From assembly GCF_028583425.1 (NCBI RefSeq), contig NC_072807.1:33175001-33239000 (forward strand): 64,000 nucleotides of DNA, read 5' to 3'. The stretch comes from Eublepharis macularius. Its lineage: Eukaryota; Chordata; Lepidosauria; Squamata; Eublepharidae. Below, piece by piece: positions 3,000-62,831 of this stretch (position 1 is the first letter of the stretch; every line of letters begins with the position of its first letter). A model generated the notes under the pieces. That model did not search any database. It saw nothing but the letters and a program-made list of their open reading frames with translations, and was not told the DNA's origin. The position numbers and the translations under genes are program-made.

Positions 3000-5450
3000 A
3001 CAAGGAAACAGAAAAGGGTGCAAAAAATGACTTCTGGGTCCAGTTTGCAAAACGGAGGAGAGAGATCGAAGAGGACATTTTTTTAGTTGAAATCGTAAAG
3101 TTGCAATCCTTTGGTGGCGTTCTTGTCTCCCAATATCCCACAATGAAGCAAGAGGACAGAAGCCTGTAGGCCGAGCATCTGCAAGTGACGGAAATCTAGG
3201 CCAGCTAGGAGAGGAACCTGGTGGAAGGTTTTAAGTCATCAACCCCTCGGATCCTACAAGGTGAAAACAGGACAGCCAGCTGCTTCCTTCCAGCTCTGGA
3301 AAAGTGGTGCCTCTTCCCTTTGCCAAAGTAGAGATCATTTAACAAGCATGGCAGATTGTATCTAGATCTGGGCTCTATTTACAAAAGGAGGCCACTCCTC
3401 CGGAGAGGAAACGCTCAAATTCTCTGATAGGGTTTCCTCCCCGTTTGTACAGTCCCTCCCCTCGTCAGAGTCGTTGGGATTGTTTCTTGCAGCACAGAAA
3501 CTTCTTACAACATTTCTCTAGGGAGGCTTTTGCGTGTTTTAGCATTGCATCTAATGTGTCGGATGCTTTCGCTTTGGGATTTCCTGCGCTGCGCAAGGAG
3601 TCAGACGAGATGGTCTCTAAGAACCTGTTCAGCTCTTATGATTTTACCATACTTTTTTTTTCCAGCTCTGAAATGTATCAGGAGCTGGAGAGGCCTTTTT
3701 TCCTGCCACATTCTGGCATGTCAGGTTAGAATAGGATCAGAGCCAATAAAAAGAAAAAGGTGGTCGCTTAGTTTAGAAATAGTGCCTGCCAAAGCTCTGA
3801 GACAGTTTTGGTGTGACCGATTTAGAAAAGAGATGATGGATGAGCCTGCGGGGCCTGCTTGCAGCTGGCACACACTGAAGCGGGTGCAGGGAATGAAAAA
3901 GCACGCCTTGTCGCCGTCCTCTCAGGCATACGGTGGCAGGGAGCTGACGGGCTTGCATTGAGATGTCTGAGCCATCAGGAAAGATGGCTCGCTTGAAGCC
4001 TGCTGAAGTAACACCTTCATTATCAGTGCTGAGAGAGGAGCTGTCAGGGTTATTAATGGAGGCCTCAGAGCTCAGGGCCAGATGATTCATTTTGAATAAA
4101 ACACACAAACAGGCTGATGGGATGGCGCCCTTCTGCGTTTACCGAGCACCTCGCCAGAGCGCTTGCCACAAGCTGGAAGCCACAGGTCATGTCGAAGTTG
4201 ACAGGTGTGATGCCCTTTTCTCTGTGTCGGCGGTGGGTGGGTGCCTTTTTACAATCAAAGAGCCAAAGTCTGGATCAACAAAGAGACGGTTTAAGAAACC
4301 CCATTAGCATAACAAACTATTCATTACTGATAATTGACGTGCTGATTCATAATCCGTAATGTTTCCGCAGCCAAAGCACTGCTGCTTGTGTGATTTATTG
4401 GAAAACGGCACACACGAGGTCACACAAGAACTCATAAAGATACACTGGAGTCTTCTGTGTGATTGTTTTACTGTTCTGGAATGAATCTGCACATGATTAT
4501 GATTTGCACTTGGATTCCTGGCAATCATCCACCTCTTTCTTTTCTCTTTCTGTCTTCATATCCTCTAGCTGTTTTCATGAGATGTTATGGAATGTGCATT
4601 AACATTCTAATTACTCATGGAGAAGCTGTCCGAGAGAATGCTCCTCCCTGTTAAAAACAACAACAAGCTCCTAGCTTATTAGAGAGTAGGATTCTAGCCT
4701 AGCCTTCTCTTTGATGCGCTAGCTTTCCTTGTTTGGGAAATGTTTTGGACAAAGGAACATTCCACCCCGTTAGCCCCGTCTACAGTCTAAAGGAGCCCTG
4801 GCACAGGTTGACCGCATTAAGAAGCAGGAGGAGGGGGTCCCAAATGGTCTAAATTTTGGTTTTCTTACCAAGCACTGCACGGCCTTCTTTCCAGAAGCTT
4901 TTTTGGCTGCAGGGCACCTGCCGCCTGCTCCTTTCCTCTTAGACCCCTCCCCTGCCCCACTGAAGCATCACTGACACAACGCCCCTTGCTCAGGAGTGTA
5001 AACGAGAACAAGCCAGCCTCTCGCACTTCGCAGAGGAAATAGTATCAAATTCAACCTCTCTTCTGTGAAACACATTTCCACGTTGCCAGCAGAACAGGTG
5101 GAAGGCGGCTCATCAGGTATCCGGGCAAGGTTACAAGGTGGAGCGATGCCAAGCTTCCAGGGTCCTCGGCCAGAACAGGTTATGAACTTTCACAAGGGGC
5201 GAGCCAGGTGGCTGAGAGGAATCGGGGCCAAAACAGAGTAGAGTTTAAACACTGGCAGGATGAAAGGATGAGGTGTGTGACTTCCGGCAACTGCCTGGCT
5301 GCGCTAAGAAAGTCATGGCCTGTCCGACAAGACTGACTGAGGTGAAGTTGGTTTTGAGGAAGTCAGCAGTATAGTAGTGAGCAAAAGGAATATGTGAGCT
5401 GACTCCATAGGATCAGAGTCTATTTACCTTGCAGTTTAGGGGCAGTGTAG
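3000..5450. other. Mostly single-copy intergenic DNA
   Basis: No recognisable exon is present. Between about 3900 and 4650 I see none of the repeat families that fill the rest of the window. That segment is A/T-rich with homeodomain-like TAAT/ATTA motifs and could be conserved non-coding DNA, which is a guess. Confidence 0.4.
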
Positions 5451-6999: not shown

Positions 7000-9000
7000 T
7001 ATTGCCTGGGTATAGAAGGAGGAAGAAGAGTAGGAAGAGGAGTGGAAAAGATGGACGGGACTGGGAAACTCAGTCTTTCTTCAACATTTGAGCAAAATCA
7101 GCATTTATCTGGAAGATGCAGATGGTTAGAAAGACGCGTTCTCCCTCCCCCCCCCTTCTTCAGCGAGCCCAGCTCAGCAAATCCAGCCTTGGGCATTGCA
7201 CCGCATGGCTAATTTCTCATTGGAGTTATAAAAAGCAGTGCCTCAAAGAGCCCCCTTGGTTCTGCTTGTCAGTTGGGCTTGCGGCTCAAGCAGAGTTCCT
7301 TTGCGTTTAATCAGCACTCTCCTGCAGGGCAGAGAAAGCAGTAGCAGGGACGATATCCAGGGTCGGGGGGGGGGGAATTAAAGGCAAGGAAGAGAGAGCA
7401 TGCTAGGGCCCAAACGTCTCTTGAACCAGGTTGCATGACACGTCCTTTAAATAGCTTCAGAATCAGGCTTAAAGTTTGGGTGGCCGTGCATGACACTTTG
7501 CTGCACGGCCCAAATTCCTCGGCCACTTGTGCTTTGGGAGCAGATGCAAGAATGTCAAAAAAAAAGACAGCTTAAAGAGACAAACATCAGTTGTCATGAA
7601 CTGGAGACCACTTCATCAGATGCATAGAAATTCCTGGTAGGGTCTATAAAAACACAACATATAAGGTCCAGGAAGTTGGTTTGCATTGGTCTGTAGAAAA
7701 ATCCAAAAACTAAAATCCACCTCCCCATCCTCTGGTCAGCTGATTCCCGGCAGCTCCCAATGGGCCCTTCCAGACAGGGGCACTTCCTCCACTGGCCACA
7801 TTAAGGAGGGCTTGTGGCACTGATGAGCCGGGGCCAGCAGCTCTTCCTGGAAGCAAGCAGCTCTCCCAAGACTACTGGCCTCCAGGTTTGAGTCCCCACA
7901 TGGCACTTGATAGTCTGACATTTCCAGCCAAGTGGCATGTTGGGGCTGGCCATTAAGGGGAGACAGTGGTGGCAGGGCCTGAGCTGCTCTAGAGGAAAAG
8001 ACTGCTCTTTTGCAGGCGTAGAGGCGATGCCAGCCAGCCAGATACATCTCAACAGCTGCTTTCGGCCCTGAAGTGCAAGCATCAATCCCAGGAGAAGGCG
8101 AGCTGCCTTTTTGGTCACTGTTCATAAATATCTTTCCCATAGGCTTGCAGCAGCATCCTCTTATCCCTGTATCTCTGCCTTCCAGGATGATGACCGGGCC
8201 ACTAGCAAGAACCTGGATGCCCAAAGATGCTGTACATGCTGACAGCTTCCCTTTGCAGGCTTCCACACAAAACCCACTCCGTATCAGCACCTGCAGGCGG
8301 CCCAATGTATTCATTGTTTGCATAAGCCCCAAAGCCAGCAGAGAGAGATACCAATCCCCCTCCCCTCAGCTCAGCCTTTCTGCCAGTATCTCCCCCATTC
8401 CTCGCCCAGCTTCCTCTTCTAATCCAGCAAGGGACTATAGAATTGGGTTGGGTGGGAGAAAATGACTAGTGCATGCTTTGTGCACACTGGGGGCAGGGAC
8501 TTGCATTCTTTTTGTCTGCCTTCTGCCGGATTCCCCCCCCCCTTTTGAAAAACACCAGCTCAGTGGGACAGAGAGACGGAGGAAAGGCCTGTAGCAAAGG
8601 ATTTGGCTTCTGAATGCCCTTTTTATCTCTCGACAGACAGCAGATCTTTTGGGCTGGAAGCAGCAAGCTTATCTGCCTGAGCCACAGATTGGCTGGTTGT
8701 GCTTATCTTGCCTCTGCATAATTGAATATTCATTTTTAATACCCCCCCCCCAGTAGGTGTCAGGCCTCTGCCCCATTTCTCTCCAATGAGGACAGGAGAA
8801 TTTGTTGCAGCAGAACAACGTGATGGGAGGAAGACCACATGGATCCTTGGGGTAATAAAGCAAGTCAGATAACAACAGATGGGTTTGCAGGATGGAGAGT
8901 GAAGCCATCCTTGGGCTGGGGGGGGCAGGCTCCTGAATTTAATCACCCATCAGTCACTGGCCTTTCCCTTCCTTCACTTTGGACTTGGAGTGACTGAGGA
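7000..9000. other. Intergenic DNA, no supported gene
   Basis: Apart from a degraded hammerhead-repeat trace near 7600-7650 (the minus strand reads GCATCTGATGAAGTGG), I see no exon and no well-defined repeat. A 198-codon minus-strand open frame at 7736-8332 has no recognisable domain and I do not call it a gene. Confidence 0.4.
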
Positions 9001-15400: not shown

Positions 15401-24007
<8,607 letters not shown>

Positions 24008-34800: not shown

Positions 34801-36301
34801 GAATGTGCTCAGTCCTGTCTGGGTGTGAAAGATCAGCTGTTAAGTCATGATTTGCGGGGGGGGGGGGTTTTGCAGCGGGAGGATTCTGTGTTCTGTTTCC
34901 AACTAGATAAAGAGGAGCTAGGTAACTTTGAGAGGCGCTTGCCTGTGTTCAGATTGGAACTGCACAGGGAGGGGGGAGACAGTTTAATGGTTGTTGTGGG
35001 TTTTCCGGGCTGTATTGCCGTGGTCTTGGCATTGTAGTTCCTGACGTTTCACCAGCAGCTGTGGCTGGCATCTTCAGAGGTGTAGCACCAAAAGACAGAG
35101 ATCTCTCAGTGTCACAGTGTGGAAAAGATGTAGGTCATTTGTATCTACTCAGGAGGGGTGGGGTTGAGCTGAGTCATCCTGTGAGAGTTTTTGTGAGAGT
35201 TCTATCCCCCGACAATAGCCCTGCAGAGAAGATCAGCACATCAAGTACCAATCCATATGCAAAAGAACCTCCTCAGGATACAGTGAAGCCTCCCGCCATT
35301 AGCATTCCATACCCTGGGAAACTCTCACAGGATGACTCAGCTCAACCCCACCCCTCCTGAGTAGATACAAATGACCTACATCTTTTCCACACTGTGACAC
35401 TGAGAGATCTCTGTCTTTTGGTGCTACACCTCTGAAGATGCCAGCCACAGCTGCTGGCGAAACGTCAGGAACTACAATGCCAAGACCACGGCAATACAGC
35501 CCGGAAAACCAACAACAACCATCGTTCTCCGGCCGTGAAAGCCTTCGACAATACAGAGACAGTTTAACTCTGAATTGGGGAACTACCACCTCCTCGAGAC
35601 TTGCAAGAGGAAGAATGGAGTGGCGAGTGCCCTCAAGTCATAGTTGACGTATGGCGGCCCCTGGTGGGGTTTTCATGGCAAGAGACTGACAGGTGGTTTG
35701 CCATTGCCTGCCTCTGCAACCCTGGTCTTTGAAGGCATAGGGACAAAGTGGGTGTCTACAGTGGAAAGGTGAATCAGTCGAAATGGCTCTTTCCTCCTCC
35801 TCCAAAATCTTGTGTCTTAGGAATGTGGCTGGGGTTTTTAATAGCAGGAGATAGGATTTATAAATAAATAAATAAACGATCATCATGACTGTGTGAACTG
35901 AAACTACCCCAGTGCTGTTGCTGACCCTTTCATAGGTAAAAAGTTTGCCTGTCCAGGTAACAGCTTGGGGGGGTGGTGTGCAGGCTGCAGTTAAAAACCT
36001 GTCGGGATAACGGGCTATCAGCTTTCCCCTCCCTGAAATAGCTATTTAAAAATCTTGCTGAGCACATTCAGGTATATCCTTGTTCATCCCAATTGGGGGG
36101 AGTCTGATGCTAGCAAATACCTTCACCTCCTTTTCTGCTTCCCAGGTGAACCAGGATCTCAGTCGTCAGCTGCTGCAGGATGGCTATCACCTGGACGAAG
36201 TCCCAGACGACGAGGACCTTGACCTCATTCCTCCCAAGCCTGTCTCATCTTCCCCTTGTGCCTGTTGCTTCGGGGAATCCTCTTCTTGCTCCATCCAGTG
36301 A
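28684..36301 (+). CDS. FAM219B: FAM219B (6 coding exons)
   Basis: FAM219B is a small vertebrate protein of unknown function. The exons are 28684-28761, 31734-31830, 32134-32224, 33777-33854, 33980-34028 and 36146-36301. They join in phase to 182 residues. The conserved blocks are [76 protein letters not shown] and [18 protein letters not shown], then [13 protein letters not shown]. The C-terminus is Ser/Cys-rich ([18 protein letters not shown]), which could be lipid-modified. The N-terminal exon is acidic and low in complexity, beginning [18 protein letters not shown]. It is tandem with COX5A and convergent with MPI, as in human. One intron uses a GC donor. Identity is firm; function is not known. 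Confidence 0.95.
29112..29467 (-). repeat. Sauria-type SINE split by a MITE
   Basis: The outer parts are one minus-strand SINE: tail and body at 29112-29242, head at 29404-29467 with GGTTCAAATCCCC and GGTGTAGAGG. A TAGGG-family MITE sits between them. The SINE is therefore older than the MITE insertion. Confidence 0.7.
29243..29403. mobile_element. hAT-like MITE, TAGGG family, nested in SINE
   Basis: It runs from GGGTTGCCAGCCTCCAGG to CCTGGAGTTGCAACCC. It is slightly shorter than its relatives, and its target duplication is not clear. Confidence 0.65.
30095..30174. repeat. Foldback repeat cut by a hAT insertion
   Basis: AGTTACTCCAGTCTAAGTCC and its imperfect complement GCTTAGACTGGGTTAGCTCT form the foldback. 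Its right end is interrupted by the hAT element at 30175-30487, whose target duplication ACTGTAAG lies in this terminus. Confidence 0.6.
30175..30487. mobile_element. hAT-like MITE, CAGGGCTTTTTTTC family, palindromic copy
   Basis: The exact 8-bp repeat ACTGTAAG lies at 30167-30174 and 30488-30495. The terminal inverted repeats are CAGGGCTTTTTTTC and AAAAAAAGCCCTG. Unlike the 6351-6569 copy, its interior is itself a long inverted repeat (about 30225-30370) meeting near CACGCCACAGCACGG. It lies in FAM219B intron 1. Confidence 0.9.
31734..31830 (+). CDS. FAM219B: FAM219B coding exon 2
   Basis: It follows CTCTTAACAG and ends AAGCTGC|GTAAGT. It codes for [18 protein letters not shown], then [14 protein letters not shown] and one base of a Gln codon. 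Confidence 0.93.
31841..31890 (+). repeat. (GT)n(GC)n alternating tract
   Basis: Fifty bases alternate purine and pyrimidine without a break: first GT repeats, then GC with one CA step. The tract begins ten bases after the exon 2/intron 2 junction of FAM219B. Such tracts are known to favour left-handed DNA. Confidence 0.95.
32134..32224 (+). CDS. FAM219B: FAM219B coding exon 3
   Basis: It follows GGGTTGCAG. It codes for [20 protein letters not shown], then RNQPKSAAK and two bases of an Arg codon. The donor GAG|GTCAAA is weak after the GT. The phase to exon 4 is correct. Confidence 0.92.
32390..32598 (-). repeat. Sauria-type SINE
   Basis: The minus strand starts GGAACCAGCGTGGTTTAGTG with a B-box-like GGTTCGAATCCCTG. 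A body follows with the TGTTGTGAGGATAAAA hairpin and the tail GGTATAAATGAAGTAAAATA. It is nearly complete. Confidence 0.8.
32705..32905 (+). repeat. tRNA-Ala-like SINE, copy 3
   Basis: CTGTGGCTCATTGGTGGAGT and AGGTCCCAGGTTTTG form the head. The body has GAGACCTGGAGAAACATTGCC, AGTCACAGTAGGCAATACTG and AACTAGACAGACCAACAG. Confidence 0.65.
33455..33545 (-). mobile_element. Hammerhead-type interspersed repeat, single copy
   Basis: The minus strand reads TGTCTGAAGAACGGAGCTCT, ATGAAAATCTTGTTGGTCTC, then CAAGGTGTCACTGGAC and CTGCTGCTCTGCTGCAGACC. CUGAAGA is kept but the GAAAGCUU part is lost. Confidence 0.55.
33777..33854 (+). CDS. FAM219B: FAM219B coding exon 4
   Basis: It follows TCTTCTGCAG and ends GACAG|GTGAGA. 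It codes for [20 protein letters not shown], then SLESD. Confidence 0.95.
33980..34028 (+). CDS. FAM219B: FAM219B coding exon 5, GC donor
   Basis: It follows TTCTCCTAG and codes for [16 protein letters not shown]. The next bases are GCAAGT rather than GTAAGT, so this is a GC-AG intron with an otherwise strong donor (GAG|GCAAGT). The phase to exon 6 is 0 and the reading matches human. Confidence 0.93.
35040..35080 (-). ncRNA. Hammerhead-like ribozyme fold, left arm
   Basis: On the minus strand: CCU, CUGAAGA, U, helix II GCCAGC/GCUGGU with loop CACAGCU, GAAA, CG, U, C, AGG. Helix I is CCU/AGG. The outermost helix II pair is G-U here. ACGU is a palindrome, so helix III would need two RNA copies. 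Confidence 0.6.
35429..35469 (+). ncRNA. Hammerhead-like ribozyme fold, right arm
   Basis: CCU, CUGAAGA, U, helix II GCCAGC/GCUGGC with loop CACAGCU, GAAA, then CGUC before AGG. All core bases fit CUGANGA..GAAA..UH. Cleavage would fall after C35466. Helix III is the palindrome ACGU, typical of forms that work as dimers. One unpaired U between the core and helix II is non-canonical. Confidence 0.65.
35606..35745. repeat. 5S-SINE body, copy 2
   Basis: GAGTGCCCTCAAGTCATAGT, ATGGCGGCCCCTGGTGGGG and TTTTCATGGCAAGAGACTGA match the body at 22853-23035. The 5S-like head is missing. Confidence 0.65.
36146..36301 (+). CDS. FAM219B: FAM219B coding exon 6 with stop
   Basis: It follows TGCTTCCCAG and codes for [20 protein letters not shown] to SSSCSIQ, then TGA at 36299-36301. 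The Cys-rich tail is shorter than in human. Confidence 0.96.
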   Translation: MNQDLSRQLLQDGYHLDEVPDDEDLDLIPPKPVSSSPCACCFGESSSCSIQ

Positions 36302-60316: not shown

Positions 60317-61545
60317 TAGGGGTGTGCAAGCGAAAAATTTTCGGCTATAGCCGAAAGTAGAAAGCCGAAAGAAGATTCTCTATCGTTAAAGCCGAAAGCC
60401 GAAACAAGAATCTCTTTCGGCTTTCGACTTTCGGGATTCTTTCGGCATTATTTCGGCATTCTTTCGGCTTTTTTCTATGGGAAAATGCCTCCGTCTTCCA
60501 GGATGCCTGGAGGAGGCATTTTCCCACCGAATAAGCCCAAAATTGGTGGGGACCTTCCTCTAATCCTTCTCTAACAACCACCCAAGTTTCAGGCAGATTG
60601 GACTTTGGGGGGCCATGTTATGGCCCCCCAAAGCAGGTCCCCCCATCCTCCCATAAGAAAGCGAAGGAGCAGCATATTGTTAGCATGCTGCTACTCATCT
60701 TCTTCATTATTTCCTATGGGGAAAAATGAAGAGGCAGGCTTCCTTTGCCAGGGGTGGCATTTTGCATGCAAAATGCCCCCCAACCCTCTGGGGCCCTTCT
60801 CCCACCCCTCCTCCCACCCCCCACCAAGGCTCAGCCTGATCCCACTTGGGGGGGCATTTCATGGCCTCCCCAAGTAGGTGCTCTAATCTCTACCACTGAC
60901 AGCTGGGGGAGGCTTGTGTTGCCAGGGGTGGCATTTTGCATGCAAAATGCCCCCAAGCCCTCAGGGGCCCTTCTCCCACCCTTCCCCCCACCCCCCACCC
61001 AGGCTCAGACTGCTCCCACTTGGGGGGGCCATTTCATGGCCTCCCCAAGTAGGTGCTCTTTTCTCTACCACTGACAGCTGGGGAAGGCTTGTCTTGCCAG
61101 GGGTGGCATTTTGCATGCAAAATGCCCCCCAGCCCTCTGGGGCCCTTCTCCCACCCTTCCTCCCACCCCCCACCAAGGCTCAGACTGCTCCCACTTGGGG
61201 GGGCATTTCATGGCCTCCCCAAGTAGGTCCTCTCAGCCCCTAAAGTCCACCCCTTACAGCCCCACACAACCCCAATTCCCCCCCAGCTGCCACACACAGA
61301 CCCAAATCCCCACATTAGCCCCTCACAGACCCAAATCCACCCCCCACCTGCCCCACACCCATAACCCCAGGAACAGGCTGGCAAAGGCCAGCCCTCTCCC
61401 TTTGTTCCCTATGCTGGGAACTTCTAAACTCTCTTTCCCTGGGCAATTCTGCACAGCCCAGGGGTGCCACAATGGTGGGCACACTTCTGAGTGCCAGCTG
61501 GTCCCTGTGAAAGAGCACACACCAAAACAAGGAAGTGTGCCAACA
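60317..61545. mobile_element. Repeat-rich element with TAGGGGTGTGCAAG end
   Basis: The left end TAGGGGTGTGCAAG resembles the terminus of the 39802-40121 element. Inside are many CGAAAG/CTTTCGG words (60330-60470), then A+G-poor, C-rich DNA holding a 175-bp tandem repeat. No right terminus or target duplication was found, so extent and class are uncertain. It could be a hAT-like element that captured satellite-like sequence. Confidence 0.45.
60747..61240. repeat. Tandem repeat, about 175 bp, nearly three units
   Basis: Units start at 60747, 60921 and 61096 with GCCAGGGGTGGCATTTTGCA. Each carries the perfect palindrome GCATTTTGCATGCAAAATGC and phrases such as CTTCTCCCACCC and TTTCATGGCCTCCCCAAGTA. 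The last unit is incomplete. Confidence 0.9.
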
Positions 61546-61890: not shown

Positions 61891-62831
61891 GCCAGTTCAT
61901 ACTTACAGTTAATCAAAGTATTTCGTATCCAAACTCAAAAAGCATTCCGGTTTACATTCAGGTTTACATTTACAGATCCAGCTCCCGAGTTAGGTGCGGG
62001 GGGCGTAGATATCCACCATTAAATACAAGCCACTAGGTCAATTGTCAATTACCATACAATTAATTGATTTAAAGACATATCAGTACCAGGTACATTTATT
62101 TCAAATGACTAATGTCTGAGTGGGACCTTAGCAAGGGAAGGGGGGGGGGGAAGGAGAGACAAAAGAAAAAGAAAAGCAAGAAAGAAAAAAGAAGGAAGAA
62201 AAAAGAAAAAACAATATAAAGAGAAAAAGAAACAGAAGCCAGAAAGGGGGGGAGCAAGGAGAGAGGGGGGAGGGAGGGGGGAGAAAACGGAGAAAAAGAA
62301 AACGAGAAGAGAGAAAGCCAAAAACCAGAAACGGGAGGAAAGAGGAGCGGGGGGAAGGAACGCCAGTTCATACTTACAGTTAATCAAAGTATTTTGTATC
62401 CAAACTCAAAAAGCATTCTGGTTTACATTCAGGTTTACACTTAGAAATCCAGCTCTCGAGTTAGGTGCGGGGGGCGTGGATATCCACCATTAAATACAAG
62501 CCACTAGGTCAATTGCCATACAATTAATTGATTTAAAGACATATCAGTCCCAGATACATTTATTTCAAATGACTCATGTCTGAGTGGGACCTAAACAAGG
62601 GAAGGGAGGGGAAGGGAAAACCAAAAGAGAAAGAAAAATAGTAAATAAAAAGAAAAGGAGGGAAGAAAGAAAAAACCAGTAGAAAAAGGAGCCAAAAAAG
62701 GGGGAGGGAGAGGGGAGACAGGGGGGGGAGGGAGGGGGGAGAAAACGGAGGAAAAAAAGGAGAAAAAAAGGGGCGAGAAAAAGGGAAACCAAAAACCAGA
62801 AACGGGAGGAAAAGGGAGCGGGGGGAAGGAA
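61891..62831 (-). repeat. Two tandem 471-bp units in the PLE 3' region
   Basis: GCCAGTTCATACTTACAGTT starts at 61891 and again at 62362. Each unit contains GCATTC(C/T)GGTTTACATTCAG, TTAGGTGCGGGGGGCGT, GATATCCACCATTAAATAC and TGTCTGAGTGGGACCT, then about 230 bases of almost pure purine on the plus strand. The units differ at scattered sites and in the purine tract. Confidence 0.9.
62130..62355 (+). repeat. Polypurine tract 1
   Basis: About 225 bases are nearly all A and G on the plus strand, including runs of eight to nine G. The PLE transcript would be pyrimidine-rich here. A matching tract lies at about 62595-62832. Confidence 0.9.

Follow-up and report, generated by a model that had tools for sequence, protein, structure and literature searches.

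We found an insertion of 568 bases at positions 34988-35555 of the window, the 64,000-nucleotide stretch of the Eublepharis macularius genome that was analysed here (C18:33175001-33239000), flanked by exact 12-base copies of GAGACAGTTTAA. The repeat finder returned GAGACAGTTTAA as the single direct-repeat family of at least 12 nt between 34800 and 35760, the 12-mer has no further occurrence in the whole window, and an exact 12-mer repeat at the same spacing was present at none of 63407 other window positions. Repeat finder and spacing control thus confirm the 568-bp insertion with an exact 12-bp duplication that an initial annotation had described. The same program detected a single inverted pair, 34987-35190 and 35319-35522, with 204 nt per arm, 99% complementarity and 128 nt in between, in line with the two inverted arms of about 210 bases reported earlier; both element 3' ends point towards the target, as had also been claimed. 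Base 34987 is compatible with duplication and arm alike, which leaves the left border ambiguous by 1 nt. The arms differ at two sites, 34998 versus 35511 and 35051 versus 35458, the second being a CpG change in the left arm, and on its target side the right copy possesses 33 extra nucleotides (35523-35555). The parts of the insertion are as follows (PLE, Penelope-like element; Poseidon_Ac, a green anole PLE; pLTR, pseudo-LTR).

34976..34987, no strand: left copy of the target site duplication, GAGACAGTTTAA (repeat finder and base-by-base reading)
34988..35190, minus strand: putative left cDNA, an antisense pLTR arm without tail, with its 3' end at Poseidon_Ac ORF +83/84 (site 1; alignment)
35039..35077, minus strand: hammerhead motif in the left copy, altered at one position next to the core (GGTGAAAC)
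35191..35199, no strand: putative filler of about 9 nt at the inner joint, repeating the adjacent TGTGAGAG (TGTGAGAGTT at 35180 and 35192; starts of sister rows)
35200..35555, plus strand: putative right cDNA, comprising upstream ORF end, pLTR with hammerhead motif, ORF start and tail, with its 3' end at Poseidon_Ac ORF +118
35211..35360, plus strand: C-terminal codons and stop of the PLE ORF (DNSPAEK...QPHPS stop), covering the spacer plus a little of the arm (frame compared with sister ORFs L043 and L031)
35432..35470, plus strand: minimal hammerhead motif CTGAAGA...GAAACGTC of the right copy, predicted cut after 35466 (motif and position)
35438..35554, plus strand: first 39 codons of the PLE ORF, ending ESLRQY (alignment with the Poseidon_Ac template)
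35523..35555, plus strand: 33-nt 'tail', at the right end only
35556..35567, no strand: right copy of the target site duplication, GAGACAGTTTAA (repeat finder and base-by-base reading)

Further element copies in the window were limited to short, chance-level BLAST matches, and the joined flanks have no empty paralogue of the target site within the window. Contaminant copies were rejected, the exact patterns having no match in viral contigs and genome contigs. The surroundings hold a COX5A exon at 23230-23601 (Pfam COX5A, E 1.6e-18), about 11 kb beyond which the insertion lies, a 112-bp repeat that is 86% alike at 22864-22975 and 35622-35729, the latter within the right-hand flank, and two tandem arrays at 60745-61233 (unit 175 bp, 2.8 copies) and 61891-62831 (unit 471 bp, 2 copies).

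The spacer between the arms, about 115 bases that the initial annotation had taken to be unique, is instead element sequence that codes for the C-terminus of the ORF and matches the ORFs of sister copies: together with the start of the right arm it encodes the same residues as the ORF end of sister copy L031, bar one. Given that the left arm extends to 35190 and that sister rows begin at 35200 (query 213) in 38 of the 39 best rows besides that of the window, the other row starting at 220, the spacer would consist of the 5' extension of the right copy plus about 9 nt of filler. These bases, which repeat the neighbouring TGTGAGAG, look like templated filler, as is left by polymerase-theta-type joining. 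Because the spacer codes for the ORF end, the right cDNA appears to have run on into an upstream ORF end, as would happen on a tandem PLE RNA; both cDNAs seem to have been extended past the hammerhead site.

Family membership and the hammerhead motif

Judged by its sequence, the insertion is a PLE of the Penelope/Poseidon kind and a relative of the green anole element Poseidon_Ac, the nearest one in print. The right copy (plus strand) aligns to the printed Poseidon_Ac template RNA from ORF -10 to +118 with a score of 136, versus at most 46 in 200 shuffles, while the remaining UTR gave no alignment with Poseidon_Ac; the right end aligns at ORF +118 and the left end at +83/84. The ORF start codon lies at 35438, and the anole counterpart protein reads MPAIDVGETSGENASGTWPHSPKDIQQPCDPGHESLRQH. 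Each arm represents the pLTR and includes the hammerhead motif, the start codon and the first 28 codons of the ORF. The first 39 codons, a short piece, have no Pfam match, and the window copy retains just the two ends of the ORF; a reverse transcriptase (RT) is encoded by sister copies, in which an 861-aa frame (L043) and a 470-aa frame (L031) match RVT_1. Both sisters also carry a GVYRIP...GQVYIG stretch, which resembles the GIY-YIG endonuclease motif; Pfam returned no GIY-YIG family at E <= 0.01. Two further hallmarks of PLEs are present, namely a pLTR that includes the ORF start and has an optional tail of 30-40 bp (here 33 nt), and head-to-head pLTRs with a target duplication. The initial annotation had described the element without its family name, and it missed the two different initiation sites at the ends. 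Head-to-head pLTRs with duplication and a one-end 'tail' have already been published, and anatomy and family are therefore known. The end counts and the arm-length test below are additions of this analysis; neither was recognised in the literature searched, which misses most subscription papers.

The hammerhead core, CTGAAGA-stem-GAAACGTC, spans the start codon, and its predicted cut after 35466 lies 26 nt past the ATG. The accessible text on Poseidon_Ac states the same distance and likewise places the ORF start inside the pLTR (PMC11167929). By motif and position, the pLTR thus probably contains the minimal hammerhead expected of PLEs. The earlier label 'ribozyme-bearing' agrees with a hammerhead motif in both copies and less well with the structural searches: Rfam matches were absent both from the window at gathering scores and from 34900-35650 at E up to 10, and in the predicted minimum-energy fold of 90 nt just stem II forms, the core CTGA pairing with TCAG in an otherwise not hammerhead-like structure. 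PLE hammerheads are described as minimal, without helix III, in the part of PMC6155905 at hand, and the anole ribozyme cleaved only with protein present, according to the available portion of PMC11167929.

Ends and arms of related insertions

The genome (2.24 Gb, 72 contigs) was searched for relatives of the insertion, with samples that consist of the best-scoring, youngest copies. A first search, in which the best 40 of 928 candidates were scored, favours tail-bearing copies, whereas queries 35319-35522 and 35400-35522 stop at site 1 and are thus blind to the tail. Query 35319-35522 gave 36 loci from its best 40 rows, 32 of which were obtained, the window included. Among these matches listed, 22 of the 32 loci hold a head-to-head pair in which both 3' ends could be resolved; duplications of 12-13 bp are present in 16 of them, the window's own pair being one, which bears out the expectation about arm orientation and duplication length in the initial annotation. 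Three loci (L029, L034, L040) are single, 5'-truncated copies that end at site 1 and have duplications of 9, 13 and 11-14 bp, respectively. For the other seven, neither a partner nor a usable duplication was found; six are tail-ended (L036, L009+L060, L015+L061, L041, L020+L064, L044) and one is site-1-ended (the 4423-4632 copy of L047).

From the 40 loci listed for query 35400-35522, 11 were taken for their already visible partner fragment, and this sample is therefore uninformative on pair frequency. It contributed 11 pairs, 10 of them distinct, because L057 and L058 (C2:47031400-47041500) are the same insertion in opposite orientation, about 9.5 kb apart, in a large inverted duplication. 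Five more pairs adjoin targeted copies (L011, L039, L043 twice, L047), one L043 pair (7400-7726) having been joined by hand across a 23-nt fragment. The nine loci from the tail-favouring search alone added three pairs (L013 and L022); in the other seven (L010, L012, L017, L021, L024, L025, L026) no pair was assignable within the short stretches. Tail-to-tail pairs were not noted, duplications being tested for head-to-head neighbours only.

In all 40 head-to-head pairs, the 3' end of one copy lies at site 1 and that of its partner at the tail, about 33 bases further on, with alignment ends at 198-212 of 237 for site 1 and at 232-237 for the tail. This one-site-per-end arrangement holds for 22 of 22 pairs of query 35319-35522 and for all 10 distinct pairs of query 35400-35522; with independent site choice at equal odds, such an outcome in the first 22 would arise with a chance of 2.4e-7. 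The three single and seven partnerless copies among the 32 loci mean that the rule may have exceptions. An arrangement with one tail end, one site-1 end and free arm lengths would also result if the RT started at the tail on a sense RNA and jumped, at the 5' side of this RNA, to an antisense RNA with its 5' end at site 1, and antisense templates have been suggested for rotifer Penelope in the available text of PMC3846280. We nevertheless regard such a template jump as quite improbable, since the RT starts at two adjacent sites in vitro (PMC11167929, accessible part) and the single site-1-ended copies L029, L034 and L040, with their duplications, require initiation at that site.

Exact duplications of at least 11 bp accompany 33 of the 40 pairs and of at least 9 bp 35 of them; the remaining duplications are short (7 bp in one L043 pair, 8 in L056 and 6 in L048, within chance) or absent (L047, L049). 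Duplication length was taken as the longest exact match with a slack of up to 8 nt per border (12 in some), and lengths may therefore include a few bases shared with the element end; in a random control with 8 nt slack, 9 bp was reached in 2 of 300 position pairs and nothing longer occurred. The 33 pairs printed base by base have duplications of 9-16 bp with 72% A+T, versus 57% in the 9-kb loci, and the PLE endonuclease is reported to favour AT-rich DNA in the part of PMC11167929 consulted. A duplication of at least 9 bp that spans both arms in 35 of 40 pairs makes a later inversion, or a second PLE insertion beside the first, very improbable as the source of the inverted arms, even though PLE copies do cluster at L022, L043 and L047. 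Inverted ends with a duplication could also bring to mind a DNA transposon with 204-bp terminal inverted repeats. This is barely credible, because the ends differ by 33 nt, the duplication length varies over the range just given, sister copies code for RT and the arms come in many lengths; identical ends and a fixed duplication length, which define that class, were not found, and we rejected this assignment.

The arms of a pair are frequently unequal. Arm extents were read by hand and are approximate for L031, L046, J018 and J023, which have internal breaks. The site-1 arm is more than 30 nt longer in 15 of the 40 pairs and the tail arm in 9, with 16 pairs within 30 nt, a number reached in 0 of 20000 permutations; the 22 pairs of query 35319-35522 divide into 13 with a longer site-1 arm, 7 with a longer tail arm and 2 near-equal ones. 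The arm lengths thus look correlated over all 40 pairs, but no such correlation is left among the 24 in which an arm extends beyond the pLTR (2 within 30 nt, permutation mean 1.1). A single RNA shared by both arms is therefore unsupported and was discarded.

These lengths bear on the snap-back route, by which a tail-primed cDNA would fold back at its 3' end and copy itself into an inverted second arm. Self-priming of this type, placed on an antisense template, was favoured for rotifer Penelope on account of palindromes at the inverted junction, as stated in the available part of PMC3846280. Features of our data fit it as well: in the window the tail arm exceeds the other in length, TGTGAGAGTT next to the joint recurs inverted as AACTCTCACA at 35320, and 8 of the 10 short pairs of query 35400-35522 have arms that come within 7 nt of each other. 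However, a folded copy can be at most as long as its template, whereas in the 15 pairs mentioned above the longer arm is that of site 1; copying back would be expected to run to the tail end, whereas the second arm terminates at site 1 in all 40 pairs; and a snap-back that begins from site 1 cannot produce a tail. Pairs in which the site-1 arm is longer thus contradict snap-back as a general route, and we consider it an unlikely explanation overall, although less so than a template jump. Since either the site-1 arm or the tail arm may be longer, two RNA-templated cDNAs explain the pairs, which simple snap-back does not.

The survey yielded several further observations. Short, near-symmetric head-to-head insertions (L049-L059, e.g. 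L052, L054, L056) span 254-320 bp, their arms terminating at query 60-106 of window 35319-35555; both cDNAs may have reached the 5' end of a short RNA. On the side of site 1, ten of the 33 duplications terminate in TG, where tailed copies read CAT, a hint of possible priming by short microhomology at this site. At L018+L062 (C5:113978800-113983100), a PLE pair is apparently nested in a truncated pLTR of a PLE, and its 15-bp duplication ACATGGTTGTTGTGG is itself mostly element sequence. At L020+L064 (C5:64364200-64368500), two tailed pLTRs point the same way at a distance of about 2.7 kb, as tandem PLE copies would. In L025, L036 and L041, an inverted piece of the ORF body without pLTR adjoins a tail-ended copy, and no duplication was found for these pieces; such an arrangement resembles the 5' inversion of LINEs.

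A proposed two-primer reaction

The insertions most probably arise from two separately primed cDNAs on element RNA, with one initiation site for each strand. Ends, duplication, arm lengths and the one-site-per-end arrangement are read from the sequence, and from them we infer cuts, primers, a dimer and a joining enzyme. The RT-endonuclease would cut both target strands about 12 bases apart and leave 3' overhangs, one of which would prime a cDNA at site 1 (ORF +84, CAACAACCA) and the other at site 2, 33 bases further 3' (ORF +118, CGACAATACA). Both cDNAs would then be extended towards the 5' end of the RNA, through the hammerhead motif, and halt at different places. Their 3' ends would be joined, in the window via a 9-base filler copied from the neighbourhood, and fill-in of the overhangs would create the target duplication. 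The initial annotation had likewise envisaged priming from both nicks followed by joining of the cDNAs; with cuts and joining as presumed steps, this idea is supported with good likelihood by the survey, by extension of both strands and by the unequal arms.

This scheme agrees in several respects with biochemical data on the anole element, as given in the accessible text of PMC11167929. The anole PLE protein cuts and extends both target strands in vitro, its RT-endonuclease is a predicted dimer, and the RT of Poseidon_Ac starts at two adjacent sites, the tail of 30-40 bp being the stretch between them. The commonest start lies at ORF 111-118; the second published start would correspond to ORF +84, a match that rests on tail length. 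The systems differ in that both strands used the start sites alike in vitro, whereas each end has its own site in 40 insertions here. With strands that behave alike, mixed pairs would be predicted unless initiation is coupled, and the lack of a strand difference in vitro fits our data if either strand may receive either site. Moreover, the anole targets were tagged on the top or the bottom strand, and the pairing of sites within one product would therefore not show. PLE integration could thus be a coupled two-primer reaction in which an asymmetric RT-endonuclease dimer assigns one start site to each cut strand, a proposal of our own to which we give an even chance.

Among PLEs, self-priming was hypothesised for Pen2a_Av of Adineta vaga and other Penelope elements, and the available part of that report contains no count of ends with exactly one tail (PMC3846280). 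A two-primer model for PLEs was not recognised in print in the literature searched, outside of which most subscription papers lie, which leaves its absence unproven. In LINE-1 twin priming, the second cut strand primes a second cDNA, which leads to an inversion within one duplication, and the inverted piece is a non-overlapping internal part of the RNA. Priming by the second strand of the cut is thus common to both reactions, whereas the two arms found here each start from an initiation site of the element itself. A twin-priming product of the LINE-1 type was rejected for the window, where the arms overlap by 204 nt.

PLEs have been described as the third class of eukaryotic retroelements. Proposals for their insertion comprise target-primed synthesis without detail (PMC11167929) or self-priming (PMC3846280), as far as the accessible parts of these reports go. 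The window insertion itself is ordinary, and it is the rule found for its family that bears on how PLEs integrate. In natural insertions of a single young family, the two ends of every event are preserved, and the pairing of start sites per event is what the genome adds to the in vitro data. These insertions suggest two primers and two start sites, one each, rather than simple snap-back. If the coupled reaction is true, every completed two-sided insertion would have a tail at exactly one end, and the 'optional tail' of PLEs would be not a random variant but the footprint of divided labour.
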